Source: Pseudomonadota bacterium
Lineage (GTDB): Bacteria > Pseudomonadota > Alphaproteobacteria > Acetobacterales > Acetobacteraceae
Reading direction: 5' to 3'
Assembly (NCBI GenBank): GCA_021801255.1
Contig: JAJYYH010000025.1
Span: forward strand, 1-64,000
Length of the DNA stretch: 64,000 nt
This document shows positions 1,581 to 63,415 of the stretch, piece by piece. A model generated the notes under the pieces. It was given only the letters and a program-made list of their open reading frames with translations. It was not told the DNA's origin and did no database searches. Position 1 is the stretch's first letter, and every line of letters begins with the position of its first letter. The translations under genes were made by a program, and so were the position numbers.

Positions 1581-1793
1581 TTTTTGATGCCTCCTTACGA
1601 ATGTTTTGCGCGCCATTTCGGGGCGCGCTCACGGTTTCGTTATTTACAGTTGTATATAACGATGCCGCAATCCATAAATCGCGCTTTTATCGTAACGCGA
1701 GTTATTTTTTCTGCGTCCCGGCGCGCCGCCGCGGATTGACAGACAACCCCTCCCGGACCAGCCTTCCCCAACGCTCATCGGGAGGGTGCGATC

Positions 1794-3097: not shown

Positions 3098-3098
3098 A

Positions 3099-3893: not shown

Positions 3894-4008
3894 TCGTCTG
3901 GCGCAGCCAGAGGCGCGGCAGACGCCGCTGTCCTCGCCGTTCGATTATCGTTTCCCCTTCCGCACTTACGCGACCGGCGGCGCCTGACCGCAAGGCAACA
4001 GGGAAGAT

Positions 4009-4035
4009 TTGTTCTTTTTTGCAAAAAAAGAACCA
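4009..4035. terminator. Bidirectional intrinsic terminator between convergent genes
   Basis: GTTCTTTTTT (4011-4020) pairs with AAAAAAGAAC (4024-4033) around a very short loop. The sequence offers a U-rich tract on either strand and lies between the convergent ends of the MBL-fold gene (3893) and the ClC gene (4051). Confidence 0.7.
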
Positions 4036-4050
4036 AAAAACTTTTGCCTC

Positions 4051-6634: not shown

Positions 6635-6682
6635 AGCAGACCTCCTCGAGGTTCAAGCGGGGCGCGTTCCCTAAACGTTAAT

Positions 6683-6703
6683 GTTCGAAATTTGTTCTTG
6701 ACA
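6683..6703 (+). promoter_or_regulatory. LexA (SOS) box GTTC-N7-GTTC abutting a TTGACA -35 element
   Basis: GTTC at 6683-6686 and GTTC at 6694-6697 are separated by exactly seven bases (GAAATTT). This is the direct-repeat SOS box known for alphaproteobacterial LexA. TTGACA follows at once (6698-6703), so bound LexA would cover the promoter of the radical SAM gene starting at 6754. The -10 is unclear: TATAAA at 6726-6731 is 22 bases away, longer than optimal. Confidence 0.7.
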
Positions 6704-6753
6704 AAAATGGTTAATATCCACAGGGTATAAAGGGAACTAATAAGGAACGTTGT

Positions 6754-7917
6754 GTGCACGTGATGGATACTCTTCGCAAGCCACGGGTGACCTCCGTGCC
6801 GGGGTCTCCCGCTGGACTCCCTCCCACGGCACTCCCGGGGCCGGCGCCGCGCGGGCGTGGGGCGACGCATAATCCGAAAATCCGCTTCGAGACGCGGCAC
6901 GCCGATCCCTTCGATGACGGCTGGGACACGCTCGCGGCCGCGGCGGAAAACCCGCCCCCGCTCGCCACCGAGCTGATCCGCGACGCCAGCCGCTCGGCGA
7001 TCAGTTGGAACGACAGCCCCGATCTCGGCTTCGATCGCGCGGTCAACCCCTATCGCGGCTGCGAGCACGGCTGCGTCTATTGCTATGCCCGTCCGAGCCA
7101 TGCCTATCTCGGGTATTCCCCGGGGCTCGATTTCGAGAGCAAACTGGTCTTCAAGCCCGACATCGTCGCTCTCCTGGAGCGTGAATTGCGCAAGCCGGGC
7201 TATGTCGCCCGCCCGATCACGCTCGGCTCCAACACCGATCCCTACCAGCCGATCGAGCGCCAGCTCAAGCTCACCAGCGGCATTCTCGAATTGCTGGAGA
7301 GGCTTGCCCATCCCGTCGCCATCGTGACCAAATCGGCCGGCGTGCTGCGCGATCTCGACCGGTTGCGCGCGATGGCGGCGCGCGGGCTGGTGCGGGTGCA
7401 TCTCTCGCTCACCACGCTCGATCCCCGGCTCGCGCGCGTCATGGAGCCGCGTGCGGCAAGCCCGGCGCGGCGGCTGGCGGCGATCGCTGAATTGTCGCGC
7501 GCCGGCATCCCGACAGGCGTGCTCGCCGCCCCGATGATCCCCGGTCTCAACGATGCCGAACTCGAACGCATTCTGGCAACCGCCGCCGCCGCCGGCGCGC
7601 GGCACGCCGGCTATGTGCTGCTCCGCCTGCCGCATGAACTGCGCGCGTTGTTCGAGGCCTGGCTGGCCACGCACTTCCCCGACCGGGCCCGCCACGTGCT
7701 CAGCCTCATTCGCGAAACCCGCGCCGGGGCGCTGAACGATGCCGAATTCCACCGCCGCTTCAGTGGCAGCGGCCCCTACGCCAGCCTGCTCGCGCAACGC
7801 TTCACCCGGGCCCTCCATAAACACGGCTTCACCACCGCCCGCGCCAGCCTCAATTGCACCCTCTTCTCGCCACCTCCAAACGCCCACCAAGCACGCCAGC
7901 TCGCGCTCGATTTTTAA
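6754..7917 (+). CDS. PA0069/Rv2578c-family radical SAM protein (SplB-like)
   Basis: A protein of 387 residues. The radical SAM cluster motif is C103-x3-C107-x2-C110 (NPYRGCEHGCVYCYARPSHAY), which binds the [4Fe-4S] cluster and SAM. It is followed by the family stretch GSNTDPYQPIERQLKLT and LSLTTLDPRLARVMEPRAAS. It resembles spore photoproduct lyase-like proteins and the PA0069 family, whose reaction is not established. The start is GTG at 6754, seven bases after AAGGAA; ATG 6763 is the alternative. A LexA box about 60 bases upstream points to DNA-damage induction. As I recall, PA0069 is in the Pseudomonas LexA regulon, which would agree. Confidence 0.88.
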   Translation: MHVMDTLRKPRVTSVPGSPAGLPPTALPGPAPRGRGATHNPKIRFETRHADPFDDGWDTLAAAAENPPPLATELIRDASRSAISWNDSPDLGFDRAVNPYRGCEHGCVYCYARPSHAYLGYSPGLDFESKLVFKPDIVALLERELRKPGYVARPITLGSNTDPYQPIERQLKLTSGILELLERLAHPVAIVTKSAGVLRDLDRLRAMAARGLVRVHLSLTTLDPRLARVMEPRAASPARRLAAIAELSRAGIPTGVLAAPMIPGLNDAELERILATAAAAGARHAGYVLLRLPHELRALFEAWLATHFPDRARHVLSLIRETRAGALNDAEFHRRFSGSGPYASLLAQRFTRALHKHGFTTARASLNCTLFSPPPNAHQARQLALDF

Positions 7918-8112
7918 GGGAAGGCCAGGGGCGCCGCCCCTGGACCCCGCCAGGGACAGAAGTCCCTGGACCCTATTTCTGAAGGCTTGCCGGGAAGGGG
8001 CGCTGACGTGCGCTGGCCACCGTCTGTGTCGCGCCCTTCCCGGCAAGCCTCCGGGATGGGGGTCTGGGGCCACTGGCCCCAGCGGGTCGAGGGCGGAGCC
8101 CTCGCCTTCCCT
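7916..8112. repeat. Two inverted copies of a GC-rich hairpin element between convergent genes
   Basis: This 195-base gap holds perfect hairpins CCAGGGGC/GCCCCTGG (7925-7943), CCAGGGAC/GTCCCTGG (7950-7969), CTGGGGCC/GGCCCCAG (8064-8082) and CGAGGGC/GCCCTCG (8088-8104). A longer inverted repeat has its left arm (AGGCTTGCCGGGAAGGG) near 7983-8000 and its right arm near 8033-8050. Left and right halves are roughly reverse complements over about 85 bases each, as if one element were duplicated head to head. It probably terminates transcription from both sides. Confidence 0.75.
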
Positions 8113-9144
8113 TCAAGCCGCGCGGCGGGTGAGCAGGCTCTCGGCGATCAGTGTTTCGGCGATCTGCACGGCGTTCAGGGCGGCGCCCTTGCGCAGGTTA
8201 TCGGCGACGCACCAGAAGGCGAGGCTGTTGGGCGCGGTCGGGTCGGCGCGCAGGCGGCTGACGAACACCGCGTCCTCGCCCTGACATTCGAGCGGCGTGA
8301 CATAGCCGCCATCCTCGCGCGTATCGACCACCTCGACGCCGGGGGCGGCGCGCAGCAGGCGCCGGGCCTCGGCCACGCTCACGGGGTTTTCGAAGGTCAC
8401 GTTCACCGCCTCGCCATGGCCGATGAACACCGGCACGCGCACGCAGGTGGCGAAAACCTGGATGTCGGGGTCAAGGATCTTGCGCGTCTCGACCGCCATT
8501 TTCCACTCTTCCTTGGTCGCGCCGTCGTCCATGAAACGGTCGATCTGGGGGATGCAGTTGAAGGCGATTTGCTTGGTGAATTGCTGCGGCGTGGTCGGGT
8601 CGCCGACAAAAACCGCGCGCGAATGGGCATAAAGCTCGTCCATCGCCTCCTTGCCCGCGCCCGAGACCGATTGATAGGTCGCGACCACCACCCGGCGGGC
8701 ATGGAAGCGCTCATGCAGCGGCTTCAGCGCCACCACCATCTGGATGGTGCTGCAATTGGGATTGGCGATGATGTTGCGCTTACGGAAATTCTTGAGGTGC
8801 TGCGGGTTGACCTCGGGCACCACCAGCGGCACGTCGGGCTCCATGCGGAACTGGCTGGTATTGTCGATCACCACGCAGCCGGCGGCGGCGGCGCGCGGCG
8901 CGTGCACCGCCGAGACCGCGGCGCCGGGGCTGAAGAGCCCGATATCCCAGCCGGAAAAGCCGAAACTTTCCAGGCTTTTGACCTGGAGCACGGCTTTTTC
9001 GCCGAACGATACCTCGCTGCCCGCCGAGCGGCCCGAGGCGACGGCGGCGACCTCGTCGATGGGAAAATCGCGCTCGGCGAGCGTCTTCAGCATCTCCCGC
9101 CCGACCGCGCCGGTGGCACCCACAACCGCGACCCTGAAGCCCAT
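8113..9144 (-). CDS. asd: Aspartate-semialdehyde dehydrogenase
   Basis: A protein of 343 residues. It reduces aspartyl phosphate to aspartate semialdehyde with NADPH for lysine, threonine, methionine and diaminopimelate synthesis. The N-terminal VAVVGATGAVGREML is the NADP-binding loop. The catalytic cysteine is C131 in IIANPNCSTIQ, and the substrate arginine/histidine region (CVRVPVFIGHGEAV) is present. AGGAG lies nine bases before ATG 9144; an upstream in-frame TTG at 9165 lies ahead of that site and is less likely. It stands alone, convergent with the radical SAM gene. Confidence 0.96.
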   Translation of the reverse strand: MGFRVAVVGATGAVGREMLKTLAERDFPIDEVAAVASGRSAGSEVSFGEKAVLQVKSLESFGFSGWDIGLFSPGAAVSAVHAPRAAAAGCVVIDNTSQFRMEPDVPLVVPEVNPQHLKNFRKRNIIANPNCSTIQMVVALKPLHERFHARRVVVATYQSVSGAGKEAMDELYAHSRAVFVGDPTTPQQFTKQIAFNCIPQIDRFMDDGATKEEWKMAVETRKILDPDIQVFATCVRVPVFIGHGEAVNVTFENPVSVAEARRLLRAAPGVEVVDTREDGGYVTPLECQGEDAVFVSRLRADPTAPNSLAFWCVADNLRKGAALNAVQIAETLIAESLLTRRAA

Positions 9145-9242
9145 GATCCCATGCTCCTGCTGCAACCGCGCTTTCGCGTGGCGGTATCGATATGCCCGGA
9201 ACGAGGCCGAGGCAACCTCCTTATCGGCAGGGGAGACCGCGC

Positions 9243-10961
9243 CTAGAGGCCGGGCGGCGGCATCGCCAGTTCGGGAACGCGGGCAAGGAGGGCCGCGTGG
9301 AGACTTTCGCGGCGCTGCCAGAGATCGCGATACCAGGCGATGCGGGGGAGGATTTGGGAGGCCAGCATGCGCGCCCGCGCCACCTCGGCGCGCGCCCGCA
9401 GGGCGAGGCTCTGGGTCATCGCCGGGTCGGCGAGCATCGCGCGCAGCTTCATTTCCAGCTCCTGCGGGTTACGAAAAATCATCCCCGTCTCGCCATCGGC
9501 GATGCTGCCGGCATAGACCGTATCGCTGGCGAGTGCCGCGACCCCCGCCGCGGCCGCCTCGATGAATTTGAGGTCGGATTTGCAGCGGTTGAATAGCGTG
9601 TCCTGGAGCGGCATGAACGAGATTTCGGCCTGCGCCAGGGCGGCGAGATAGTCGGGATAGTCGAGCATCGGGGAAAAGCTCTTGTGCGGGGTCGCCAGCG
9701 CCGCGAAGAAGCCGCGATCGTGCAAGACCTTGACCTGGAGGCGCGGGCCGGCCTCGGCGGCCACCCGGTTGAGCGCGGGGAGAAGCGCCGGCCAGTCCGC
9801 CTCGCGGTTGATCCCGGCGAAGAACAGGGTGAGCCGCGAGGGATCGGCGAAATTGACCGGCTCGCGCAACGCGCTCACCGCATTGGGAAATACCGCGACC
9901 TCGGGATTGGCGGCGCGCAGCACCTCGGCGAGCACGGGCGTCGTGGTCTGGATCGCATGCACGGCGCTGAAATTATACATCGGCCGCTGCTGCAATACCG
10001 GGATATAGTCGGGATGATCGTCGAATTCGCAGACCAGCAAATAGCCTTTTTGGATCAGCGGGCGGAGGCTCGCGAGCCCGCCCTCCCCGATCAGCGCCGG
10101 GCGATGCAGGATGACGATGCTCGGCCCCTCGGGCGCCTGGGCGGCGAGCGTGCGGAGATCGGCGAGGCCGGCGCGGATTTCGGGGTCGGTCGCGAGCCCC
10201 CGCATCGGCTCGATCACCCGCACATGGCTGACGCCGCCCACCGGCTTGAGCATGGTGGAAAATACCGTCAGACGCTCGGGCGGGCTCGGCCGCGCCCGCC
10301 AGATATACTGGAGTGGCAAAGCGCGGCGCGCGTATTCCTCGGGGGTGACGCCGAGCGCCTGGAGCGCCGGCGTGATGGCCAGGATGAAACGCTGGCCTTT
10401 TTCCGGCTCGAACACCCGCGGCGCGCTGTCGAGCGGGACGAGGCCGGCCTCGGTCAGCGCCCGGCGCAGGGTTTCCGCCGAAAACCAGCGCAGATGGGTG
10501 CGATCGAAGAGGCCGGTTTCCTCATAGGCCCAGCGTCCCTGGAGCAGGCGCGCGACGAAGCTCCAATGCTCGACATTGGGCACACAGGCGAGCAGCACGC
10601 CTTGCGGGGCGAGCAGGGCGGCATGGCGGCGGAGCAAGGCCCAGGGGTCGCGCAGATGTTCGAGCACGTCGCCGTAGATCAGGCAATCGAACGTCCCCTT
10701 GAGCGCATCGGGAAAGGAAAGGGCCTCGATATCGCCCACGAAAACCTGATCGAGCCGGGTTTTGGCACGCGCCGCGGCGCCGGCGTCGGTCTCGATGCCG
10801 ATGACCTGGGCGGCAGGATTACGTTGCTTGAACCGTGCCCCGAGCACGCCGGTGCCACAGCCGATATCGAGCACGCGGCGCGACCAGAGCGGGATACGCT
10901 CAAGGAGATCGGGATTATAGGCGTCCGGGTAGGGGTAGGGGGCCGACGCGCCGGCCGACAT
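9243..10961 (-). CDS. SAM-dependent methyltransferase fused to a glycosyltransferase
   Basis: A protein of 572 residues with two modules. Residues ~1-200 form a class I methyltransferase: VLDIGCGTGVLGARF, acidic IGIETDAGAA, and CLIYGDVLEHLRDPW. From ~225 on is a GT4-like glycosyltransferase-type domain (FSTMLKPVGGVSHVRVIEPM, LTLFFAGINREADWP, and FIEAAAAGVAALASDTVYAG, where the family's sugar-nucleotide glutamate would sit). The start codon follows the ugd stop directly with no gap, so the two are co-transcribed. Together they suggest synthesis of a uronic-acid-containing, methylated surface polysaccharide; the exact sugar is unknown. Gene fission or fusion is possible in relatives. Confidence 0.8.
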   Translation of the reverse strand: MSAGASAPYPYPDAYNPDLLERIPLWSRRVLDIGCGTGVLGARFKQRNPAAQVIGIETDAGAAARAKTRLDQVFVGDIEALSFPDALKGTFDCLIYGDVLEHLRDPWALLRRHAALLAPQGVLLACVPNVEHWSFVARLLQGRWAYEETGLFDRTHLRWFSAETLRRALTEAGLVPLDSAPRVFEPEKGQRFILAITPALQALGVTPEEYARRALPLQYIWRARPSPPERLTVFSTMLKPVGGVSHVRVIEPMRGLATDPEIRAGLADLRTLAAQAPEGPSIVILHRPALIGEGGLASLRPLIQKGYLLVCEFDDHPDYIPVLQQRPMYNFSAVHAIQTTTPVLAEVLRAANPEVAVFPNAVSALREPVNFADPSRLTLFFAGINREADWPALLPALNRVAAEAGPRLQVKVLHDRGFFAALATPHKSFSPMLDYPDYLAALAQAEISFMPLQDTLFNRCKSDLKFIEAAAAGVAALASDTVYAGSIADGETGMIFRNPQELEMKLRAMLADPAMTQSLALRARAEVARARMLASQILPRIAWYRDLWQRRESLHAALLARVPELAMPPPGL

Positions 10962-35536: not shown

Positions 35537-36234
35537 TGCTCCGCGTGCGCGGGCTCGACGCCTGGTACGGCAAGAGCCAAGTGCTGCGCGGCGTCGATCT
35601 CGAGATCGCCGCGGGCGAGATCGTGGCGCTCCTCGGGCGCAACGGCGCCGGGCGCTCAACCACGCTGAAAGCGATCATGGGCGCGATCACCCGCGCCGGA
35701 TCGATTATGTTCGACGGCGAGGAGATCAGCGCGCTGGCGCCGCATGAAGTGGCCTGGCGCGGGCTCGGCTACGTGCCCGAGGATCGCGCGATCTTTCCTG
35801 GCCTGAGCGTCGAGGAAAATCTCGTCCTCGGTGAAAAAGCCGACAGGCACGGGGAAAAACGCTTTCGCTTGGCCGACGCCTACGCACTGTTTCCGCGCCT
35901 CGCGGAGCGCGCGAAGGCACCTGCCGATGCGCTTTCGGGCGGCGAGCAGCAGATGCTCACCATCTGCCGCACCTTGCTCGGCAATCCGCGCTTGCTCATG
36001 GTGGACGAGCCCACCGAGGGGTTGGCGCCCATGATGGTGGAGCGCATCCAGAAACTTCTCGCGAGAGTTGCGGAGCTTGGCGTGACAATTCTGCTCGTCG
36101 AGCAAAAGCTGACGATCGCCTTGAAATTGGCCCGCCGCCTCTACGTCATGGGTCATGGCAGCGTGGTCTTCGAGGGCACGCCCGCGGCGTTTGCCAGCAA
36201 TGCAAAAATCCGCCAGGAATGGCTGGAAGTGTGA
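35533..36234 (+). CDS. livF: Liv-type ABC transporter ATPase (LivF) with Walker A lysine replaced by arginine
   Basis: A protein of 233 residues starting at GTG 35533 (GTGA overlap with livG) or ATG 35536. The P-loop reads LLGRNGAGRSTTLKAIMG: the invariant lysine is an arginine (codon CGC at 35653-35655). All other motifs are intact: signature LSGGEQQMLTICRTL and Walker B LLMVDEPTEGLAP. The arginine may weaken ATP hydrolysis, so that LivG carries most of it; I have a vague memory of similar P-loops in other LivF proteins. Last gene of the transporter, 29 bases before the beta-oxidation genes. Confidence 0.93.
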   Translation: MMLRVRGLDAWYGKSQVLRGVDLEIAAGEIVALLGRNGAGRSTTLKAIMGAITRAGSIMFDGEEISALAPHEVAWRGLGYVPEDRAIFPGLSVEENLVLGEKADRHGEKRFRLADAYALFPRLAERAKAPADALSGGEQQMLTICRTLLGNPRLLMVDEPTEGLAPMMVERIQKLLARVAELGVTILLVEQKLTIALKLARRLYVMGHGSVVFEGTPAAFASNAKIRQEWLEV

Positions 36235-36263
36235 CACAAGAGAGGCCAGGGGAGAGAGCGCTC

Positions 36264-38378
<2,115 letters not shown>

Positions 38379-38423
38379 GCGGCGCGCTGGGAAGGGTGGG
38401 CTGAGAAGGGAGGGTAGACGGCG

Positions 38424-40100
38424 ATGAGCGGACAACGTCGGCATCCGTGGGAAGCGATCTACCCTCCCGGTCTCGACTGGAGGACGGAGATCGCCACCGG
38501 CACGCTGACCGACATGCTCGATGAAGCGGTCGCCGCTTATGGCGACCGGCCGGCGTTCGAATTCAACGATCGGCGCATGAGTTTCGCGGAATTCGGCGCC
38601 GCCGTTGCGCGCGCCGCCGCCGGCCTTGCCCGCTTGGGCGCCGGGCCCGGGCGCTCGGTTGCGCTTTATCTCGCCAATCTTCCTTATCATCCGATCGCGT
38701 TTTTCGCGGTGCTCCGCACCGGCGCCCGTGTCGTCCATCTCTCGCCACTCGATCCGCCGCGCGCGCTCCGATATAAGATGGAGGATAGCGAGTCTCGCAT
38801 TCTGATCACCGCCAATCTCGCGGGCCTCATGGGGCCGGCCGAAACGCTGCTGCGGGAGGGGATCGCCAAACATCTCGTGGTCGGCGCCGCCGATGCCTGG
38901 GGGAAGCTGCCGGCCGCGCTTTCGCCCCTGCCAGCGGGCGCAATCGATTTCGCAAGCCTCGGCGAAGCGCCGGCACCGCCGGCATGGCCGCGCCTCACGC
39001 CAGATGACGTCGCGGTTCTGCAATATACCGGCGGCACCACGGGGTTGCCGCGGGCGGCGATGCTGACCCATGGCAATCTTACCGGCGCGGTCGCGATCTA
39101 TAACGCCTGGCTTGCCGGCACCGGGCGAGGGTCACAACCGGACGACAAGATCATCGGCGTGCTCCCCTATTTTCATATCTATGCGCTGACCAACGTGCTT
39201 TTGCTCGGCATCAGGAATGGCGTCGAGCAGCTCTTGCGGCCACGCTTTGATGTCGAGACCACGCTCCGCGACATCAGCGAGAAGCGGGCGACCAATTTTC
39301 CTGGCGTGCCGACAATGTGGATCGCGCTCGCCAATCACCCCAATCTCGGACAATGCGATCTATCGTCGCTACGTTCGATCGGCTCCGGCGGCGCGCCGCT
39401 GCCGCAAGACGTCGCCGAGCGGCTGGAGCAGCTCACCGGCCATCGTCTCGGCGGCGGCTGGGGGATGACGGAAACCTCGCCCGCCGGCACCTCGCTGCTG
39501 CCCGGCCAGGCCTATCGCGCCGGGCTGATCGGCGTGCCGCTGCCCGGGATCGAGATGGATATCGCCGCTCTCGACGACCCTCACTGTGTCCTTGCGCCCG
39601 GCGAGCACGGCGAGATCCGCATCAAGGGGCCGAACGTCACCAAATCCTATTGGAAACGCCCGGAAGAAACCCAAAGCGCCTTCGCCGATGGCTGGTTCCT
39701 CACCGGCGATATCGGCTACATGGACGAGACGGGGCAATTCTATCTCGTCGACCGCAAGAAGGACATGATCATCTCTGGCGGTTTCAACGTCTATCCGACG
39801 ATGATCGAAAACGCGATCTATGAGCACCCTTCGGTTGCCGAGGTCATCGTGATCGGCGTGCCCGATGCCTATCGCGGCCAGGCGGCAAAAGCCTTCATCA
39901 CCTTGCGCGAAGGCGCGGCGCCTTTCGCGCTCGAGGAATTGCGCACGTTTCTCGCCGACAAGCTCGGGCGCCACGAACTGCCGACGGCGCTCGAATTTCG
40001 CGACGCCCTACCGCGCACCCCGGTCGGCAAGCTTTCCAAACGTGACTTGATCGAGCAGGAAACCAACAAGCGACCAGCCGACGCCACCGCGTCGCGCTGA
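38424..40100 (+). CDS. pimA: Acyl-CoA synthetase (PimA-like, AMP-forming)
   Basis: A protein of 558 residues, ANL superfamily. The P-loop is VLQYTGGTTGLPRAAMLTHGN, then GGAPLPQDVAERLEQ, GGWGMTETSP, and the hinge WFLTGDIGYMDETGQFYLVDRKKDMIISGG. The catalytic lysine is near the C-terminus in TPVGKLSKRDL. It activates a carboxylate with ATP and CoA. By gene order it is PimA, the pimeloyl/dicarboxyl-CoA ligase. Motifs alone would also allow a medium- or long-chain FadD. Confidence 0.9.
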   Translation: MSGQRRHPWEAIYPPGLDWRTEIATGTLTDMLDEAVAAYGDRPAFEFNDRRMSFAEFGAAVARAAAGLARLGAGPGRSVALYLANLPYHPIAFFAVLRTGARVVHLSPLDPPRALRYKMEDSESRILITANLAGLMGPAETLLREGIAKHLVVGAADAWGKLPAALSPLPAGAIDFASLGEAPAPPAWPRLTPDDVAVLQYTGGTTGLPRAAMLTHGNLTGAVAIYNAWLAGTGRGSQPDDKIIGVLPYFHIYALTNVLLLGIRNGVEQLLRPRFDVETTLRDISEKRATNFPGVPTMWIALANHPNLGQCDLSSLRSIGSGGAPLPQDVAERLEQLTGHRLGGGWGMTETSPAGTSLLPGQAYRAGLIGVPLPGIEMDIAALDDPHCVLAPGEHGEIRIKGPNVTKSYWKRPEETQSAFADGWFLTGDIGYMDETGQFYLVDRKKDMIISGGFNVYPTMIENAIYEHPSVAEVIVIGVPDAYRGQAAKAFITLREGAAPFALEELRTFLADKLGRHELPTALEFRDALPRTPVGKLSKRDLIEQETNKRPADATASR

Positions 40101-40121
40101 GTGAGAGGAGCGAAAATACCC

Positions 40122-41303
40122 ATGGTCGAAGCCGTCATCGTCGCCACCGCTCGTACGCCCATCGGCAAAGCCGGGCGCGGCGCCTTCAATCTCACCCATG
40201 GCGCCGATCTCGGCGGCCATGTCATCCGCCATGCCGTCAGCCGCGCCGGGATCGATCCCGCCGAGGTCGAGGAGGTGGTGCTCGGTTGCGCCCAGCCGGA
40301 AGGGGCGACCGGCGGCAACATCGCCCGCCAGGCGGCGTTGCGCGCTGGCTTGCCGGTCAGCACCTCGGCGATGACGGTCAATCGCTTCTGCTCGTCGGGC
40401 CTTCAGGCGATCGCCATCGCCGCGCAGCGGGTGATCCTGGATGGCGTGCCCGTGGCGGTCGCCGGCGGACTCGAATCGATCAGCCTGGTGCAGGATCACG
40501 CCAATCGCCACCACGCCCGCAGCGAATGGCTCGAGGCGCACAAGCCGGAAATCTATCTGCCGATGATCGAGACCGCCGATATCGTGGCCGCCCGCTACAA
40601 AATCTCGCGCGAGGCGCAGGACGAATACGCGCTGCAGAGCCAGCAGCGCATCGCCGCGGCGCAGGCGGCGGGAAGGCTCGATGCCGAGATCGTGGCGATG
40701 AGTACGGTCAAAGCCGTGGTCAACAAGGAGACCGGCGAGATCACCCATCACCCCGTCACTCTGGAGCGCGACGAGTGCAACCGCGCTGACACGACACTTG
40801 AGGGGCTCGCCAAGCTCAAGCCGGTGCGCGGGCCGGAGCATTTCATCACCGCCGGCAATGCGAGCCAGCTTTCCGACGGCGCCAGCGCCTGCGTGGTGAT
40901 GTCCGACCGCGAAGCGGCGCGGCGCGGCCTCTCGCCCCTTGGCGTTTTCCGTGGCCTGGCGATCGCCGGCTGCGAGCCCGATGAAATGGGCATCGGCCCG
41001 GTTTTCGCCGTGCCGCGCCTGCTCGAACGCCAGGGTCTCAAGCTCGAGGATATCGATCTCTGGGAACTGAACGAAGCCTTTGCCTCGCAGGTGCTCTATT
41101 GCCGCGATCGGCTCGGCATTCCGAACGATCGGCTCAATGTCGACGGCGGCTCGATTGCCATCGGCCATCCCTATGGCATGAGCGGCGCGCGCATGACCGG
41201 CCATGCCTTGATCGAGGGCAAACGCCGCGGCGCCAAGCGTGCCGTGATCACGATGTGTATTGGCGGCGGCATGGGTGCCGCCGGCCTGTTCGAAATCCTC
41301 TGA
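40122..41303 (+). CDS. pimB: Acyl-CoA thiolase (PimB-like)
   Basis: A protein of 393 residues from ATG 40122; the frame also opens at GTG 40101. The acyl-enzyme cysteine is C90 in [16 protein letters not shown]. The other catalytic residues are in the NEAFA loop, [11 protein letters not shown], and the proton-donor cysteine in [13 protein letters not shown]. It cleaves 3-ketoacyl-CoA to acetyl-CoA and a shortened acyl-CoA. In position it matches PimB of the dicarboxylate operon. Twenty-one bases separate it from the ligase gene. Confidence 0.94.
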
Positions 41304-56119: not shown

Positions 56120-56156
56120 ATGTGATAGATGAAGTAGCTTAAGTGATGTTTAAAAC

Positions 56157-56423
56157 ATGATTACCTCTGGGCAAATGCGGGCGGCGCGGGCCTTGCTTCA
56201 GATCGATCAACGCCAGCTCGCGGAGATTTCCGGCCTCTCGCTGCCGACCATCCAACGCATGGAGGCGAGCGAGGGGGTGATCCGCGGCACCATCGAATCA
56301 CTCTCCAAGCTGATCAACGCGCTCAACGCCGCCGGGGTCGATCTCATCGGCGAGGGTGAGGTGTGCCCGCCGGGCGGGCGCGGCGTGCGACTGCGCCTGC
56401 CCGAAGCAGGGCCGGTGACCTGA
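56157..56423 (+). CDS. XRE-family helix-turn-helix regulator
   Basis: A protein of 88 residues. The helix-turn-helix is QMRAARALLQIDQRQLAEIS followed by GLSLPTIQRMEASEGVIRGT, and the C-terminal part is LINALNAAGVDLIGEGE with a GGRGVRLRLPE ending common to this small family. It may control its own operon and the hyf genes; hyfB begins two bases after its stop. Ligand and targets are unknown. Confidence 0.85.
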   Translation: MITSGQMRAARALLQIDQRQLAEISGLSLPTIQRMEASEGVIRGTIESLSKLINALNAAGVDLIGEGEVCPPGGRGVRLRLPEAGPVT

Positions 56424-56424
56424 G

Positions 56425-58437
56425 ATGACCCCGGCGCTGCTCGCGATCCTGGCGTTGTGTGCAACCGGGATGCTCGGTGTGATCTGGGCGCGGCTTCCGG
56501 CGGGGCGGTGGGGGGTCTATAGCGCGAGCCTCGGTCTTTCCGTCGTGCTCATGCTCGTTGGGATCGGCGCGCTCGCCGCCCCTCCCTCAGGCCTCACTCT
56601 GCCGCTCGGCGTGCCCTGGATCGGGGTGCATCTCAGGCTTGACGCGCTTGCCGGGTTTTTCCTCGTGGTGGTTAATCTCGGGGCGGGCGGGGCCAGTCTC
56701 TACGCCCTCGGCTATGGCCAGCACGAGAAAATGCCGGAGCGGGTGCTACCGTTTTTCCCGGTTTTCCTCGCCGGCATGAACCTTGTCGTCCTCGCCGATG
56801 ACGCCTTCACCTTTCTTTTCGCCTGGGAGCTGATGTCGGTCTCCTCCTTCGCGCTGGTGATCGCGCATCATCGCGAGAGCGGGACGATGCTGGCGGGCTA
56901 CGTCTATCTGATCATGGCGAGCCTCTCGGCGCTGCTGCTGCTGCTGGCTTTTGCCCTGCTCGCCGGGCCGGCGGGAGACTATGCCTTCGCCTTGATGCGC
57001 GCCCGCGCCGTGACCCCAGGGATGGCGGGCGCGGTGCTGCTGCTCGCCCTCCTCGGCGCCGGGGCCAAGGCCGGGTTGATCCCGCTCCATGCCTGGCTGC
57101 CGCTCGCCCACCCGGCGGCGCCGAGCCATGTTTCGGCGCTGATGAGCGGGGTGATGACCAAGGTCGCGGTCTATGGCTTCATCCGCATCGTTTTTGATCT
57201 TCTGGACGGCAAGCTCACCGGCCCGCCGGCCTGGTGGGGGGCCGTCGGCGTCTTGGCGTTGGGCGGCGTCACCGCTGTCGGGGGCATTCTCTATGCGCTC
57301 ATGGAGAGCGATCTAAAGCGGCTGCTCGCCTACAGCACGGTGGAAAATATCGGCATCATCTTCATCGGTCTCGGTCTCGCGATGGCGTTCCGCGCCACGA
57401 ATTTCCCGGCCGGCGCGGCACTCGCGCTGACCGCGGCGCTGTTTCATGTCTTCAACCACGCGGTGATGAAATCGCTGCTGTTCTTCGGCGCCGGCGCCGT
57501 CATCACCGCGACCGGCGCGCGTGACATGGAGCAGTTGGGTGGGCTGATCCACCGCCTGCCGCAGACCAGCTTCGCCTTCCTGATTGGCGCGGCGGCGATT
57601 TCGGCGCTGCCGCCGCTCAATGGTTTTGTTTCCGAGTGGCTGACTTTTCAGGCGATCCTGTTGCGCCCCGATATGCCGCAATGGGGGCTCAAGATCATGA
57701 TCCCGACCGACGGCGCGCTGCTGGCGCTGGCCGCGGCGCTGGCTGCCTCCTGCTTCGTCAAGGCGTTCGGCATTACCTTCCTCGGGCGGCCGCGCAGCGC
57801 GCTGGCCGCCGCGGCGCATGAGGTTGACCGCTTCTCGCGCGCCGCCATGCTCGGCTTTGCCGCGCTCGCCGTGCTCGCCGGCGTGCTGCCGGGGGTGCTG
57901 ATCGATACGCTTGCCCCGGTGGTGAGCGCCGTTCTGGGCGCGCGGCTGCCGGTGCAGATTACCGTACCCTGGCTCTCGATCATTCCGGTCGCGGCGTCGC
58001 GCAGCTCCTATAACGGGTTGCTGATTTTTACCTTTCTCACCTCGGCGACCCTGCTTACGGTTTTTGTCATCCATCGTTTCGCGGCGCGCACGCTGCGCCG
58101 CGCCCCCGCCTGGGATTGCGGCTTTCCCGATGCCAGCCCCGCCACGCAATATAGCGGGGCGAGCCTTTCCGAGCCGCTGCGCCGCGTCTTTGGCACCACC
58201 TTATTCCAGGCTCGCACGGTGGTGACGTTGCCCCCGCCCGGCGACACCGGGCCAGCGCGCATCGTGAAATCGCGTCGTGATCCGATCTGGGATTTTCTCT
58301 ACGCGCCGGTCGGCCAGGCGGTGGGCCGCATGGCGGATGTCATGAACCATCTGCAATTTCTTACCATCCGCCGCTATCTCGCCTTCGTCTTCATCGCCCT
58401 CATCACCCTGCTGCTGGCGTTGGCGCTCTGGCAATGA
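56425..58437 (+). CDS. hyfB: Hydrogenase-4-like antiporter subunit HyfB
   Basis: A protein of 670 residues with about 14-16 hydrophobic helices and an extended C-terminus. Antiporter/NuoL-N motifs: FAWELMSVSSFALVIAHHRE with the key glutamate and GAGAKAGLIPLHAWLPLAHP with the lysine. ALMSGVMTKVAVYGFIRI and the lysine-containing DLKRLLAYSTVENIG complete the proton path. It should couple electron flow to ion translocation in the inner membrane. It is the first structural gene of the six-gene run B-C-E-F-G-I. Confidence 0.93.
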   Translation: MTPALLAILALCATGMLGVIWARLPAGRWGVYSASLGLSVVLMLVGIGALAAPPSGLTLPLGVPWIGVHLRLDALAGFFLVVVNLGAGGASLYALGYGQHEKMPERVLPFFPVFLAGMNLVVLADDAFTFLFAWELMSVSSFALVIAHHRESGTMLAGYVYLIMASLSALLLLLAFALLAGPAGDYAFALMRARAVTPGMAGAVLLLALLGAGAKAGLIPLHAWLPLAHPAAPSHVSALMSGVMTKVAVYGFIRIVFDLLDGKLTGPPAWWGAVGVLALGGVTAVGGILYALMESDLKRLLAYSTVENIGIIFIGLGLAMAFRATNFPAGAALALTAALFHVFNHAVMKSLLFFGAGAVITATGARDMEQLGGLIHRLPQTSFAFLIGAAAISALPPLNGFVSEWLTFQAILLRPDMPQWGLKIMIPTDGALLALAAALAASCFVKAFGITFLGRPRSALAAAAHEVDRFSRAAMLGFAALAVLAGVLPGVLIDTLAPVVSAVLGARLPVQITVPWLSIIPVAASRSSYNGLLIFTFLTSATLLTVFVIHRFAARTLRRAPAWDCGFPDASPATQYSGASLSEPLRRVFGTTLFQARTVVTLPPPGDTGPARIVKSRRDPIWDFLYAPVGQAVGRMADVMNHLQFLTIRRYLAFVFIALITLLLALALWQ

Positions 58438-58462
58438 ACGGGCGGGCAATGAGCGGGGCGGC

Positions 58463-59428
58463 GTGAGCGCTCTGCACTTCCTGCCGCCGCTTCTGCTACA
58501 GGGCGCGCAAATGGCGCTGGTGCTGCTCGCGGCACCCCTGCTCACCGGATGGGTGCGCAAGGTGAAGGCGCGGCTGTTGCGCCGGCGCGGCCCGCCCTTG
58601 CTGCAACCCTATCGCGATCTTTTGCGCCTTTTTGGCAAGGAAGCGGTGATCGCCGAGAACGCCTCGTGGCTGTTTCGCACCGCGCCCTATCTGATCTTCG
58701 CCTTCACCTGGGTGGCGGCGGCCCTGGTGCCGAGTTTCGCCACCGGGCTGATGTTTTCCTGGACCGGCGATCTCATCGCCATCATAGCCCTTCTGGGCGC
58801 GGCGCGCTTTCTGCTGGCGCTCGCCGGGCTCGATATCGGCACCGGCTTTGGCGGTATCGGCGCCTCGCGCGAGGTGATGATCGCCGCGCTCGCCGAGCCG
58901 GCGATGCTGATGATCGTCGTGACGCTGGCGTTGATCGCGGGCGCGACGCAGCTTTCCACCATCGCCACCTTTATGCTCTCGGGGGTGCAGGGATTACGGG
59001 TCTCGCTCGCCCTGGCGCTGGTCGCCTTCGTTATCGTGGCGCTGGCGGAGAACGCGCGCATTCCGGTCGATAATCCCGCGACCCATCTCGAACTGACCAT
59101 GGTGCATGAGGCGATGGTGCTGGAATATTCCGCGCGCCATCTCGCGATGATCGAACTCGCCGCGGCGCTCAAGCTGCTGCTCACCTGCTCGCTGCTGATC
59201 TGCATCTTTTTTCCCTTCGGCATGGCGAACGCCGGGGATGCCGCGCGCGGCTATGCCCTCGGGCTGCTCGCCTATGGCGGCAAGCTGGCGCTGGTCGGGG
59301 CAATCCTCGCCGTGTTCGAGACCGCGATCGCCAAAATGCGGGTGTTTCGTGTCCCTGGCCTGTTGGGTGCGGCGCTGATGTTGAGCCTGCTCGGGTTATT
59401 GCTGCTCTATATCTCGCGGGGCTTCTGA
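58463..59428 (+). CDS. hyfC: Hydrogenase-4-like NuoH-type subunit HyfC
   Basis: A protein of 321 residues, about eight transmembrane helices. The NuoH/HycD signature QPYRDLLRLFGKEAVI is near the N-terminus, and the quinone-module loop ENARIPVDNPATHLELTMVHEAMVLEYS carries conserved acidic residues. It forms the membrane anchor that contacts the peripheral Fe-S/large-subunit arm. Its stop overlaps the start of hyfE (TGATG). Confidence 0.93.
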   Translation: MSALHFLPPLLLQGAQMALVLLAAPLLTGWVRKVKARLLRRRGPPLLQPYRDLLRLFGKEAVIAENASWLFRTAPYLIFAFTWVAAALVPSFATGLMFSWTGDLIAIIALLGAARFLLALAGLDIGTGFGGIGASREVMIAALAEPAMLMIVVTLALIAGATQLSTIATFMLSGVQGLRVSLALALVAFVIVALAENARIPVDNPATHLELTMVHEAMVLEYSARHLAMIELAAALKLLLTCSLLICIFFPFGMANAGDAARGYALGLLAYGGKLALVGAILAVFETAIAKMRVFRVPGLLGAALMLSLLGLLLLYISRGF

Positions 59429-60090
59429 TGAACCCTCTCTCCTACGATGTCGCCAAGCTGCTGGCGGGGTTGCTGGTGCTGGCAAGCTTTCTCATGCTCT
59501 ATCAGGTTCGCCTTTCGGCGCTGCTCAACATGCTTGGCGTGCATGCCTTCATCCTGGCGCTGGCCGTCGCCTGGCAGGCGACGATCCAGCACGCGCCCGA
59601 GCTTTACATCACTGCGCTGATCACCCTGGTTTTCAAGGCGTTGCTGATCCCGGCGGCCCTGCAGCGCATCGTCACGCGTCTCGGCCTGCATCGCGAGATC
59701 GAGGCCATCACCGGGATCGGGTTGAGCATGCTGGCCGGCATCGCGCTCGTCGCGCTCTCGCTCGAGGTGATGCTGCCGGTGACCGCGCATATCGACCCGG
59801 TGACCCGCGAGGATATCGCCTTGGCCCTTTCCGTCGTGCTGATCGGCCTTTTGATGATGGTGACGCGGCGCAACGCGGTGAGCCAGGTGGCGGCGTTCCT
59901 GTCGCTGGAAAACGGCATCGATCTTGCCGCCGCGGGCGCCGAGGGCATGCCCCTGGTGGTCGAGATCAGCGTTGCCTTCTCGGCCCTGATGGCCTTCCTG
60001 GTCATCGGCATTTTTCTCTTTCGCATCCGCGAGCGGTTCGACACCGTCGATATCCGCGCGCTCGACGAGTTTCGTGGAGATCGCCGGTGA
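59428..60090 (+). CDS. hyfE: Hydrogenase-4-like membrane subunit HyfE
   Basis: A protein of 220 residues with six or seven helices, NuoK-like in its second half. Visible stretches: LLVLASFLMLYQVRLSALLNMLGVHAF, LALSVVLIGLLMMVTRRNAVSQV, and FLSLENGIDLAAAGAEGMPLVVEI, which is characteristic of HyfE. It is a short membrane component of the proton path. It overlaps hyfC at its start and hyfF at its end (GTGA), so the operon is tightly coupled. Confidence 0.9.
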   Translation: MNPLSYDVAKLLAGLLVLASFLMLYQVRLSALLNMLGVHAFILALAVAWQATIQHAPELYITALITLVFKALLIPAALQRIVTRLGLHREIEAITGIGLSMLAGIALVALSLEVMLPVTAHIDPVTREDIALALSVVLIGLLMMVTRRNAVSQVAAFLSLENGIDLAAAGAEGMPLVVEISVAFSALMAFLVIGIFLFRIRERFDTVDIRALDEFRGDRR

Positions 60091-61520
60091 TCGCGCTCTG
60101 GGGTGTGCTCGGCGCGCCGTTGCTGGGTGCGGCGGTGCTGGCGATGATCTCCGCCTATCGGCTCTCGGCGCGGCTCAACGTGGTGGTGAGCGGCGTCGCT
60201 TTCGCCGCGGCGCTTGAGCTTTTCGTCCGCCGGCCGGCGCCGGGCCTGTTCCTGATGGTCGATGATCTCAACGTGGTGTTCGTCGTGCTCTCCAGTTTCG
60301 TCGGCTTCACCACCAGCCTGTTCAGCGCGAGCTATATCAACCACGAGCTGGAAACCGGCCGCCTCACCCCGGCCTATCTGCGCTTCTATCACGCGATGTA
60401 CCAGGTGATGATGTTCGGCATGAACCTCGCCCTGGTGTCGAACAATATTGGCCTGATGTGGGTGGCGGTGGAGCTCGCCACGCTGGCCACCGTGATGATG
60501 GTCGGCGTCTATCGCACGCATGAGGCGCTGGAGGCGGCGTGGAAATATTTCATTCTCGCCAGCGTCGGCATTGCCCTCGCCCTCTTCGGCACCATCCTCG
60601 TCTATCTCGCCGCCCATCCGGTGATCGGTACCGGATTGCAGAGCATGGCCTGGACGGTGCTGCACGCGCATGCCAGCGGCTTCGATCCCGCGCTCCTCGA
60701 TATCGCTTTCGTTTTTCTCCTGCTCGGCTATGGGACAAAAATCGGCTTGGCGCCGATGCACGCCTGGCTGCCCGACGCCCACGCGGAAGGGCCGACGCCG
60801 ATCTCGGCGGTGCTGTCGGGGCTGTTGCTCAATGTCGCGCTCTATGCGCTGCTGCGCTTCAAGATGCTGCTCGCCGCCTGTCCCGGCGGCATCGCGCCCG
60901 GGCCACTTCTGGTAACGCTTGGCCTGATCTCTCTGCTTTTCGCGAGTGTCATGCTCTATCGACGCCGCGATATCAAGCGCATGTTCGCCTATTCCTCGAT
61001 CGAGCACATGGGCATCATCGTTTTCGCCTTCGGCATGGCCGGCCCGCTCGGTAATTTCGCCGGGCTGTTGCAGATGGCGATGCACAGCCTGACCAAATCG
61101 GCGATTTTTTTCACCGTCGGCCATGTCGCGCAGGTCAAGGGCACGCAGCGCCTGGCCGAGATGGGCGGCCTCACCGAGAGCCATCCCCTGCTCGGCTGGA
61201 GCCTGCTCGCCGGGGTCGCGGCGATCGTCGGGCTGCCGCCTTTTGGCATTTTTACCAGCGAGTTTTTGCTGCTGAGTTCGACCTTCGCGCGCGCACCGGC
61301 GCTTGCCGTGCTGCTCGGCGGCGGCCTGCTGCTGGCGCTCGGCGCGCTGCTATGGCGCGCCTCGGGGCTGGCGTTCGGTATGGTGCGCGGGCCGATCGGT
61401 CCGGTGCATGCCTCGTTCGTGCCGATCTTCGCCCATCTCGCGCTGGTGCTGGTCGCCGGGGTCTATCTGCCGGGGCCGATGGTGGCGTGGTTTCAGCATG
61501 TCGCGGGACTGCTCGGATGA
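60087..61520 (+). CDS. hyfF: Hydrogenase-4-like antiporter subunit HyfF
   Basis: A protein of 477 residues from GTG 60087. A second NuoL/M/N-type subunit: WVAVELATLATVMMVGVYRT with the glutamate and GYGTKIGLAPMHAWLPDAHAEGPTP. AVLSGLLLNVALYAL and YRRRDIKRMFAYSSIEHMG supply the key lysines. It pumps ions together with HyfB. It shares four bases with hyfG (ATGA). Confidence 0.93.
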   Translation: MIALWGVLGAPLLGAAVLAMISAYRLSARLNVVVSGVAFAAALELFVRRPAPGLFLMVDDLNVVFVVLSSFVGFTTSLFSASYINHELETGRLTPAYLRFYHAMYQVMMFGMNLALVSNNIGLMWVAVELATLATVMMVGVYRTHEALEAAWKYFILASVGIALALFGTILVYLAAHPVIGTGLQSMAWTVLHAHASGFDPALLDIAFVFLLLGYGTKIGLAPMHAWLPDAHAEGPTPISAVLSGLLLNVALYALLRFKMLLAACPGGIAPGPLLVTLGLISLLFASVMLYRRRDIKRMFAYSSIEHMGIIVFAFGMAGPLGNFAGLLQMAMHSLTKSAIFFTVGHVAQVKGTQRLAEMGGLTESHPLLGWSLLAGVAAIVGLPPFGIFTSEFLLLSSTFARAPALAVLLGGGLLLALGALLWRASGLAFGMVRGPIGPVHASFVPIFAHLALVLVAGVYLPGPMVAWFQHVAGLLG

Positions 61521-62893
61521 GTGCGTGGGAAGCGGCCGGGGCGCGGCTGGCGGCGGGTGAGGCGAGCCTCGTGAGCCTGTGGGCGGAGCCGGGTGCAGTG
61601 CATCTCGCGCTGTTCGAGAAGGGTGAACTTGGCCATCTCGCCCATGACTGCCCAACCGGGCGGTTTCCCTCGCTGGCGCGCGTGCATCCGCCGGCGCTCC
61701 GGCTTGAGCGCGCGGCGCAGGATCTTTGCGGCTTTATCGCCGAAGGCCTGCCCGACCCGCGCCCCTGGCTGATTCATGGCGCGGCCGCGACGCCCTATCG
61801 GTTTCTCCCCGTGGAGGGCGAGAACTTGCACGAGATTGCCGTCGGCCCGGTGCATGCCGGCATTATCGAGCCCGGGCATTTCCGCTTTACCTGCGATGGC
61901 GAGACGGTGGTGCGCGTCGAGGAGCGGCTGGGCTATGTGCATCGCGGGGTGGAAACGTTGATGGCGGGGGCGGCGCTGCCGCTGGCGGCGCAGCGCGCCG
62001 GGCGGATGAGCGGGGACAGCACGGTGGCCTACGCGCTCGCCTTCGCGCTGGCGGCGGAGCAAGCCAGTGGCACGGCCCCGCCGGCACGCGCCGTCTGGCT
62101 GCGCGCACTGATGGCGGAAATCGAGCGGCTGGCCAATCATCTCGGCGATGTCGGGGCGATCTGCAATGACGCCGCCTTCGCCCTCATGCACGCCCATTGC
62201 GCGATTTTGCGCGAGCGCGTGCTGCGCGCGAGCGCCGCCTGTTTCGGCCATCGGCTAATGATGGATGGCGTGGTGCCGGGCGGCGTGGCGCGCGATCTTT
62301 CGCCCGCGGGAGTGGCGCTGCTTGCCGGGCTGGCGCATGAGATCCGCGCCGCGTTCGCCCCGCTGGCGCGGCTCTATGACATGACCGCCTCGCTCCAGGA
62401 TCGCACCGTCGGCACCGGCATCCTGCACCCCGATCTCGCCCGCCAGTTCGCCGCCGGCGGCTATGTCGGGCGCGCCTCGGGGCGTGATTTCGACGCCCGC
62501 CGCACACCCGGCTATCCACCCTATGAGCAGCTTGCTTTTACCGTGCCGGTGCTGCGCGAGGGCGATGTCAATGCGCGCATCATGATCCGCATCCGCGAGA
62601 TCGGCGAAACCCTGGGGCTGATCGAGCAGATCCTGGCACGGCTTCCAGAAGGGCCGATCTGCGCCGCCTGGCGGCAGACGCGCGGCGAGGGGATGGCCCT
62701 GGTCGAGGGGTTTCGCGGCGATGTCTTCGTCTGGCTCCGGCTAGAGGGGGAAACGGTTGCGCGTTGCCATCTGCGCGATCCCTCCTGGTTCCAGTGGCCG
62801 CTGCTGGAAGCGGCGATCAAGGGCAACATCATCGCTGACTTTCCCCTCTGCAATAAATCCTTCAACTGCGCCTATGCCGGGCATGATCGGTAG
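61517..62893 (+). CDS. hyfG: Hydrogenase-4-like large subunit HyfG lacking Ni-Fe cysteines
   Basis: A protein of 458 residues: a NuoC-like N-terminal ~110 residues fused to a NuoD/hydrogenase-large-subunit domain. Where [NiFe] enzymes carry R-x-C-G-x-C, this one has R163-M-S165-G-D-S168, so both L1 cysteines are serines. The C-terminus ends CNKSFNCAYAGHDR, with cysteines five residues apart instead of the L2 CxxC. It therefore probably has no Ni-Fe centre and resembles the Ehr (energy-converting hydrogenase-related) class and complex I NuoD. Quinone or another acceptor may take the place of protons. Confidence 0.88.
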   Translation: MSAWEAAGARLAAGEASLVSLWAEPGAVHLALFEKGELGHLAHDCPTGRFPSLARVHPPALRLERAAQDLCGFIAEGLPDPRPWLIHGAAATPYRFLPVEGENLHEIAVGPVHAGIIEPGHFRFTCDGETVVRVEERLGYVHRGVETLMAGAALPLAAQRAGRMSGDSTVAYALAFALAAEQASGTAPPARAVWLRALMAEIERLANHLGDVGAICNDAAFALMHAHCAILRERVLRASAACFGHRLMMDGVVPGGVARDLSPAGVALLAGLAHEIRAAFAPLARLYDMTASLQDRTVGTGILHPDLARQFAAGGYVGRASGRDFDARRTPGYPPYEQLAFTVPVLREGDVNARIMIRIREIGETLGLIEQILARLPEGPICAAWRQTRGEGMALVEGFRGDVFVWLRLEGETVARCHLRDPSWFQWPLLEAAIKGNIIADFPLCNKSFNCAYAGHDR

Positions 62894-62902
62894 AGGTTCA
62901 CG

Positions 62903-63415
62903 ATGCGCAAGACGCTTTTGCAGGATTTGTTCGCCCGCTCCCTCACCGAGCCACTCACGCGCCCCGACTCCCAAGCGGTCGAACTCGCACGCGCACTCGA
63001 TGCCGCGGCGCAGCGCCAGCTTGGCCGCAGCCTCTCCATCCGGGCGCTCGATGCTGGCTCGTGCAATGGCTGCGAGCTGGAAATGCACGCCCTGAGCAAT
63101 GCATTCTACGATCTTGAGCGGTTTGGCCTGCGCTTCGTCGCCTCGCCCCGCCACGCCGATGTGCTGATGGTGACCGGGATCGTGACGCGGGCGATGCGGG
63201 TGGCGCTGGAACGCACCGATCAGGCGATACCGCGTCCCCGCTGGGTGGTCGCGGTCGGCGCCTGCGCCCGTGATGGCGGACTGTTCGCGGCGAGCCCGCA
63301 AGGAATGGGCGGAGTGGGTGCGGTGCTGCCGGTCGATCTCTATATCGCCGGCTGCCCGCCGAGCCCGGTCGATCTGCTGGCCGGGCTGCTCGCCTTGCTT
63401 CAACAGAAAACATAA
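62903..63415 (+). CDS. hyfI: NuoB/HyfI-type small Fe-S subunit
   Basis: A protein of 170 residues. The N2-type [4Fe-4S] ligands are complete: C54 and C57 in DAGSCNGCELEM, C121 in AVGACARDGG, and C151 in IAGCPPSPVDLLAGLL. It would pass electrons to the HyfG pocket. Nine bases separate it from hyfG. No HyfA/HyfH ferredoxin, formate dehydrogenase or hyp maturation gene follows; a terminator comes next. Confidence 0.92.
   Translation: MRKTLLQDLFARSLTEPLTRPDSQAVELARALDAAAQRQLGRSLSIRALDAGSCNGCELEMHALSNAFYDLERFGLRFVASPRHADVLMVTGIVTRAMRVALERTDQAIPRPRWVVAVGACARDGGLFAASPQGMGGVGAVLPVDLYIAGCPPSPVDLLAGLLALLQQKT

Follow-up and report, generated by a model that had tools for sequence, protein, structure and literature searches.

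A Hyq operon of an Acetobacteraceae bacterium encodes a hydrogenase-like membrane complex without nickel ligands, probably an Ehr-like oxidoreductase

The Hyq complex of Azorhizobium caulinodans is encoded by the hyqRBCEFGI operon and was introduced as the "Hyq endo-hydrogenase", with operon-dependent H2 uptake and evolution reported in vivo (PMC2650096, PMC2930871, PMC3357923). Its authors named it a hydrogenase on genetic grounds. In 2012, Sprecher et al. (PMC3357923) reported that HyqG, its large subunit, lacks both CxxC motifs in eight genera, that a NiFe site is uncertain if not unlikely, and that three HyqG cysteines are completely conserved; since the missing motifs were reported there, the core of the present finding is already in print. 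In the same paper a cell-free assay "is not at hand", and its available text contains neither the word nickel nor HypD. Among the literature matches listed, we found no later experimental work on Hyq beyond these three papers. Here we describe a complete operon of this type, XRE-hyfBCEFGI, on the plus strand at positions 56157-63415 of a 64,000-nucleotide stretch of contig JAJYYH010000025.1 (hereafter the window), which comes from an alphaproteobacterium of the Acetobacteraceae.

By sequence, the window operon is the orthologue of A. caulinodans hyqRBCEFGI. Both have seven genes in identical order, a regulator followed by hyfB, hyfC, hyfE, hyfF, hyfG and hyfI, and the absence of hyfA, hyfD and hyfH from the window is likewise that of the Hyq family order (R-B-C-E-F-G-I). 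The large subunits share 60% identity and a like C-terminus (HyqG ends in HDL), HyqG carries RVSGDS at the L1 motif, and both proteins fall in one supported clade of 24 rows. HyqC is identical to window HyfC over PVDNPATHLELTMVHEAMVLEYS. HyqG, numbered here to 504 residues, has cysteines at 258, 270, 355, 491 and 497; these include the three of the 2012 paper, C258, C491 and C497, which correspond to C216, C445 and C451 of the window. The A. caulinodans locus (L145, in genome G368) was located by a published primer, which matched in one of 391 genomes of one family; the same 14 kb also contain three more primer stretches and two occurrences of a 10-base part of a fourth. Unlike the Hyq case as published, the window genome is without nifH, and no TGT-N10-ACA site for NifA was found within 400 nt upstream of the window regulator.

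The large subunit HyfG/HyqG (61517-62893, plus strand) is a 458-residue NuoC-NuoD fusion by Pfam. The first-pass annotation, made from the sequence alone, had read this frame as a HycE/HyfG-type large subunit with both N-terminal Ni-Fe cysteines replaced by serine and no C-terminal CxxC; coordinates and reading are correct, and the alignment agrees. The L1 motif is R163-M-S165-G-D-S168 (codons at 62003-62020, plus strand), where Escherichia coli HycE and HyfG carry RVCGIC and hydrogenases R-x-C-G-x-C. At the other end, the former L2 region and C-terminus, P443-L-C-N-K-S-F-N-C-A-Y-A-G-H-D-R458 (62843-62890, plus strand), closes with PLCNKSFNCAYAGHDR before the stop, the counterpart in HycE and HyfG being PLIIGSLDPCYSCTDR. 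The CxxC is missing, C445 and C451 are separated by five residues, and the L2 nickel ligands align with A452 and G455.

These losses are a property of the family. When the window is aligned with 80 named loci, 80 of the 81 rows have R-x-S-G-D and the remaining one reads RTCGDS, a count that is partly circular in that RxSGD[STA]TVA[YH] was one of the two patterns by which loci were scanned; S-G-D is, however, also found in 17 of the 18 rows that came only from the non-L1 pattern. S165 and D167 are invariant in 40 rows picked for diversity, and the rows fetched without the L1 motif show a few variants (RVAGDS, RVSADS, RSCGDS, RLSADA). The rows of alignment sets A1 and A2 were chosen by hand. A sequencing error or pseudogene is thereby ruled out. 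The alignments also rule out cysteines shifted into new pairs at L1 or L2, the observation by which the first-pass annotation proposed to be judged: no substitute pair was found. No Hyq row has both of the hydrogenase cysteine pairs, RxCGxC at L1 and DPCxxC at L2, by which group 4 enzymes are recognised, and the window complex is therefore not classed as a [NiFe] hydrogenase.

The closest solved relative of HyfG is E. coli HycE (phmmer E 9.7e-47), while HyfG exceeds none of the NCBIfam cut-offs among the families matched. Its predicted fold (pLDDT 88, pTM 0.90) is nearest to HycE in 7z0s_E (Z 43.6, rmsd 2.1, 454 residues aligned, chain range 37-537). As the model is poor at the cavity loop (parts of 111-139) and at the C-terminus (454-458), no ligand geometry was taken from it. 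In the alignment, the canopy aspartate of HycE, D529 (PMC9474812), falls on N450, and this asparagine is kept in at least 97% of rows. HyfG does keep E118, the equivalent of HycE Glu193 which was proposed for proton exchange (PMC9474812), and R400, the equivalent of HycE R478; Glu118, His121, Asp167 and Arg400 are conserved in Hyq large subunits. The quinone-headgroup residues H38 and Y87 of Nqo4 correspond to I117 and G166.

The small subunit HyfI/HyqI (62903-63415, plus strand; Pfam Oxidored_q6) has one N2-type [4Fe-4S] site (C54-x2-C57, C121, C151). All four cysteines, already pointed out in the first-pass annotation, are present in 77 of 77 rows, and the CxxC spacing is of the hydrogenase type, not the adjacent pair found in complex I (PMC7684303). 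The same annotation had stated that the membrane subunits keep their proton-path lysines and glutamates, which is the case for HyfB and HyfF but not for HyfC. In the antiporter-like HyfB/HyqB (56425-58437, plus strand; NF005086, hydrogenase 4 subunit B, 826.9 bits for a cut-off of 667), E135, K215 and E404 are kept by all rows that have a residue at the position; K246 is kept in 66 of 75, with asparagine in the other nine. The antiporter-like HyfF/HyqF (60087-61520, plus strand; NF005043, hydrogenase 4 subunit F, 814.4 bits for a cut-off of 533) keeps E129, K218 and E392, and its N249 is the same as in E. coli HyfF. The NuoH-like membrane anchor HyfC/HyqC (58463-59428, plus strand; Pfam NADHdh) departs from this pattern: its ND1 loop is PVDNPATHLELTM, compared with PFD[VL]AEAEQEL in E. 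coli HyfC and HycD, and NuoH also differs from it. N204, P205, T207, H208, L209 and E210 are shared by 71 of 72 rows, with X in the remaining one, and position 206 is alanine in 59 rows and serine, threonine or valine in 12. Joint mutation of three glutamates in HycD lowered E. coli H2 production by 99% (PMC9474812); one of them remains in HyfC, as E210, and the positions of HycD E199 and E201 are taken by A206 and H208. The last membrane subunit, HyfE/HyqE (59428-60090, plus strand), scores 85.4 bits with NF008556, under the cut-off of 136, and is found in 54 of 54 loci, these being the ones among the 80 with flanks of 7 kb or more ahead of hyfG and 2 kb or more behind it. All 54 flanked loci have the whole set of B, C, E, F, G and I; none gives a HyfA-like match, and one gives a HyfH-like match, about 10 kb away from hyfG.

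The genome scan gave at least 570 confirmed stretches out of 586, and 80 loci were kept, where one locus may hold two stretches. The complex was found in Rhizobium, Bradyrhizobium, Mesorhizobium, Azospirillum, Rhodopseudomonas, Acetobacteraceae and some beta- and gammaproteobacterial genomes. Plasmid records gave 246 matches, more distant relatives included, with query coverage of 80% or more in 108; the same protein is labelled there as nickel-dependent hydrogenase large subunit, NADH-quinone oxidoreductase subunit C or hydrogenase expression protein HypE. In the tree of 71 rows (locus L030 left out), the HycE/HyfG-type and NuoD rows are split from all Hyq rows with support of 99/98. Paralogues with more degraded sites fall inside Hyq on long branches, their exact place being unsure. 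A second, smaller operon lies elsewhere in the window genome (locus L122, about 6116-10645; contig C56 of genome G000, about 36115-40645): it has HyfB-, HyfC-, HyfG- and HyfI-like genes and an L1 reading RLAAEA, and a convincing HyfE or HyfF was not found in it by tblastn, even at an E-value limit of 1. All five of the other genus members searched have copies that are 35-41% identical to the window protein. In one genome of the window genus, the Hyq copy is closest to that of a Candidimonas metagenome-assembled genome and not to the window copy (L011/L050), suggesting gene transfer.

HypD is needed for the Fe(CN)2CO group of [NiFe] centres. Among 60 relatives, 22 carry the complex (match above 280 bits); HypD is over the cut-off in 6 of them and not in 16, all 16 being at least 90% complete, although one of these has a HypD fragment below the cut-off and another the variant RLSADA. 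Among 299 genomes of the phylum, HypD is over the cut-off in 19 of 46 carriers and not in 27. These 46 were drawn from 57 matched genomes other than the window's own; the 11 left out score 127-164 bits and comprise five with CxxC, three in the same score band (G211, G230, G269), a degenerate copy (G097), G348 and a contig-edge fragment (G189). In total, HypD is not over the cut-off in 43 of the 68 other carriers examined. The window genome has HypD and HypF on another contig, which is explained by the NiFe hydrogenase beside them: this separate enzyme is sulfhydrogenase-like (RICGIC, DPCISC; locus L123, about 1679-9139, on contig C67 of G000), its best model being below the cut-off. As for nitrogen fixation, nifH is over the cut-off in none of the 60 relatives, is absent from the window genome (best match 26.7 bits) and is over the cut-off in 9 of the 46 phylum carriers, with one partial match in addition, that is in 9 of all 68 other carriers. 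The published link between Hyq and nitrogen fixation fails on this wider sample.

The window complex can also be compared with better-known machines. Ehr complexes of Sulfobacillus, Geobacter, Nitrospira and Margulisbacteria have a group-4-like large subunit without NiFe motifs together with NuoH-, NuoL-, HyfB- and HyfE-like membrane subunits (PMC4378227, PMC6349859, PMC10284858, PMC7894505). The window shows the same combination of a group-4-related large subunit without NiFe motifs and antiporter-like membrane subunits, and the likeness to Ehr put forward in the first-pass annotation stands, as judged from the published descriptions. E. coli Hyd-3 and Hyd-4 give the best fold and sequence match and share E118 and R400, but the window complex differs from them by the lost nickel ligands, the missing 32-residue tail, the absence of HyfA and HyfH, the Asp529 to Asn450 change and the altered HyfC loop. 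With the NuoB, NuoC, NuoD and NuoH core of complex I it has in common the fold and the absence of the four nickel cysteines, while the quinone residues and the small-subunit spacing set it apart. A precedent for a NiFe-less relative using its proximal cluster is the sulfane reductase MBS of Pyrococcus furiosus, also hydrogenase-derived, without a NiFe site and with the proximal cluster facing the cavity (PMC7684303). MBS, however, keeps two of the four cysteines and has a cluster with one non-cysteine iron, whereas in Hyq all four are gone and the cluster motif has its full four cysteines.

Given the lost cysteines, the canopy asparagine, the replaced glutamates of the HyfC loop, the missing quinone histidine and tyrosine of complex I, and the carrier counts for HypD (missing in 43/68) and nifH (present in 9/68), a [NiFe] centre in the window complex is very unlikely. 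We favour, with a probability of about 0.6, a NiFe-less, Ehr-like oxidoreductase of the Hyq type, which has one [4Fe-4S] cluster and couples electron transfer to proton movement. The six subunits would form the core of a machine resembling formate hydrogenlyase and complex I, with HyfG-HyfI on the cytoplasmic side, HyfC as the anchor and HyfB, HyfE and HyfF as the ion-translocating arm. No [NiFe] centre would be assembled. The single HyfI cluster would relay electrons between a redox partner that is soluble and a substrate in the altered HyfG-HyfC cavity; for this substrate, a membrane quinone or some other small oxidant is the likeliest candidate. As the operon has no HyfA- or HyfH-type input subunits, the soluble partner would dock directly. 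This redox step would drive, or be driven by, proton movement through HyfC-HyfB-HyfF. While gene content, the total loss of nickel ligands, the kept cluster and antiporter residues and the altered cavity residues can be read from the sequence, we infer the assembly of the complex, proton pumping and the direction of the reaction. The Hyq family would then be one of Ehr-type complexes occurring mainly in alphaproteobacteria, and we read the H2 phenotypes of A. caulinodans as indirect or as a special case.

Several observations weigh against this oxidoreductase reading, above all the genetics of A. caulinodans. Deletion of hyq raises diazotrophic H2 release at 20 uM O2 from 12 to 175 (with hup deletion, from 16 to 540), and below 1 uM O2, in the hup background, it lowers H2 evolution from 61,000 to 14,000 pmol per 10^9 cells per min (PMC3357923, Table 2). 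A nifK hup strain evolved 56,600, and the strain table, in the available text of that paper, does not list a nifK hup hyq combination. In nodules, the hyq deletion has no effect alone (0.30 to 0.36), but together with the hup deletion H2 rises from 0.32 to 27 (PMC2930871). The same paper states, without numbers, that strains deleted for the whole of hup/hyp recycle H2, as does Rhodocista centenaria, which is devoid of hup/hyp; this is hard to explain unless Hyq acts on H2. Moreover, classical quinone chemistry is not supported either, owing to the replacement of Nqo4 H38 and Y87. Clustering of the frames around the window operon and the 80 named loci revealed no recurrent partner gene beyond the operon and its regulator; frame picking was crude and may miss short genes, and the clusters present include a transporter-like one in 13 loci (cluster 8), one in 7 loci (cluster 11) and several antisense ones. 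The C-terminal tail does not help to decide. Closed frames stop one residue past D457 in 81 of 81 cases, and HycE and HyfG run 32 residues further; in group 4 [NiFe] hydrogenases such a tail is cut off when nickel is inserted, in HycE at residue 537. HycE, HyfG and six other rows with CxxC do have the tail, but L030 and A. caulinodans HupV lack it despite their intact L1 and L2, so that its absence is weak evidence. Our odds rest on the ligands and HypD, and setting the tail aside leaves them unchanged.

In view of these genetics, the first-pass claim that the complex should not make H2 is unsupported as it was worded. The same annotation held that nickel content and operon-dependent H2 activity would speak against it; the H2 half has been reported in vivo for the orthologue, the nickel half has not. 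It is conceivable, though distinctly doubtful, that Hyq is a true hydrogenase without [NiFe], turning over H2 at the HyfI cluster or at a novel site within the HyfG cavity. Such an enzyme would account for hyq-dependent uptake and evolution that are stated to persist without hup/hyp (PMC3357923, PMC2930871), and the four conserved polar residues of HyfG could serve it. In the A. caulinodans genome, the single HypD lies within about 16 kb of Hup-type NiFe genes, and probably within the deleted hup/hyp operon, the sole other PF00374 match is HyqG itself, and no FeFe hydrogenase match was found. HupUV as a concealed partner is weakened by the statement that full hup/hyp deletions retain H2 recycling. 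To our knowledge, every known hydrogenase metal site uses cysteine, yet all three proposed cysteines are lost in 7 of 54 Hyq rows. Two of the three H2-critical HycD glutamates are replaced in HyfC (PMC9474812), most carriers examined have no nifH over the cut-off, and the published activity is in vivo, with none cell-free or purified in the available text of PMC3357923. Taken further, Hyq might be a fourth kind of hydrogenase, proton-pumping and quinone-linked, turning over H2 without a [NiFe], [FeFe] or Hmd-type centre and without an invariant cysteine in its catalytic subunit, with the Glu118/His121/Asp167/Arg400 pocket and the HyfI cluster as its site. Depending as it does on the in vivo genetics of one laboratory, this proposal seems to us slightly more doubtful still.

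Cysteines could alternatively have been recruited anew, in a metal site rebuilt from C216, C445 and C451, which are present in 80, 80 and 76 of 81 aligned rows, respectively. This we find scarcely credible. E118 and D167 stay in the seven rows where all three cysteines are lost. Catalysis across the whole family thus cannot depend on a site made from these cysteines, nor do the three, although present in the window, define the family; HypD is also missing in most carriers examined. A less radical option, unlikely but to be taken seriously, is that the H2 phenotypes are indirect, Hyq feeding or draining electrons (for instance from quinol to ferredoxin, driven by the proton-motive force) and so shifting the H2 balance of nitrogenase and other enzymes. 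Consistent with this, the hyq deletion slows diazotrophic growth by about 21%, a deficit that stays when 20% H2 is supplied (PMC2650096), nodule acetylene reduction, which depends on nitrogenase, is 25 versus 31 (PMC2930871), and the operon needs NifA in A. caulinodans (PMC2650096), yet the complex is common in genomes without nifH over the cut-off. The nifK hup strain, on the other hand, still evolves much H2 (PMC3357923). Nitrogenase yields at least one H2 per N2, and the near-zero H2 release of hup cells with intact hyq therefore requires some H2 sink. Finally, the retained antiporter residues of HyfB and HyfF beside vanished nickel ligands would suit a redox-inert complex acting merely as a scaffold or as a proton or cation antiporter; one would not expect selection to have preserved the HyfI cluster cysteines in every row of such a complex, which makes it improbable.

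The remaining features of the locus concern its regulation and surroundings. The XRE-type helix-turn-helix regulator (56157-56423, plus strand; Pfam HTH_3), orthologous to hyqR, has a tblastn match in 34 of the 54 flanked loci and 64% identity over 80 residues to the A. caulinodans copy. The palindrome ATGTTTAAAACAT (56146-56158, no strand) shares the first two bases of the regulator start codon and is a possible XRE operator. The pattern TGTTT-N(1-3)-AAACA, picked post hoc from two leaders, occurs 6 times on the plus strand of 1,483,022 bases of family loci, always in regulator leaders; it is found in 6 of 43 leaders of about 150 nt, that of A. caulinodans included, and missing from 37. For the region ahead of hyqR in A. 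caulinodans, the published description includes a sigma-54 site and a canonical NifA box; despite this, no TGT-N(9-11)-ACA was found within 600 nt upstream of hyqR, and the sole one-mismatch TGT-N10-ACA overlaps the palindrome. Over 66 loci, the NifA motif was found in 7 (10.6%) compared with 4.25% of 400 random 900-mers, a mild excess. The gene after hyfI in the window is AlgH-like and on the opposite strand; in two Rhizobium plasmids, a DUF4365 protein follows the operon.

Relative to the 2012 paper, the loss of the three cysteines in 7 of 54 rows, the canopy Asp to Asn change, the HyfC glutamates, the quinone residues and the HypD and nifH counts are new. Hyq is credited in print with recycling the H2 of nitrogenase, yet its sequence excludes a [NiFe] centre held in the known way. 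Either its published role in H2 metabolism, which bears on H2 loss in legume nodules, needs another explanation, or Hyq would be a new chemical type of hydrogenase. Related to complex I yet lacking both the nickel and the quinone ligands, the complex may also help to trace the evolution of complex I.

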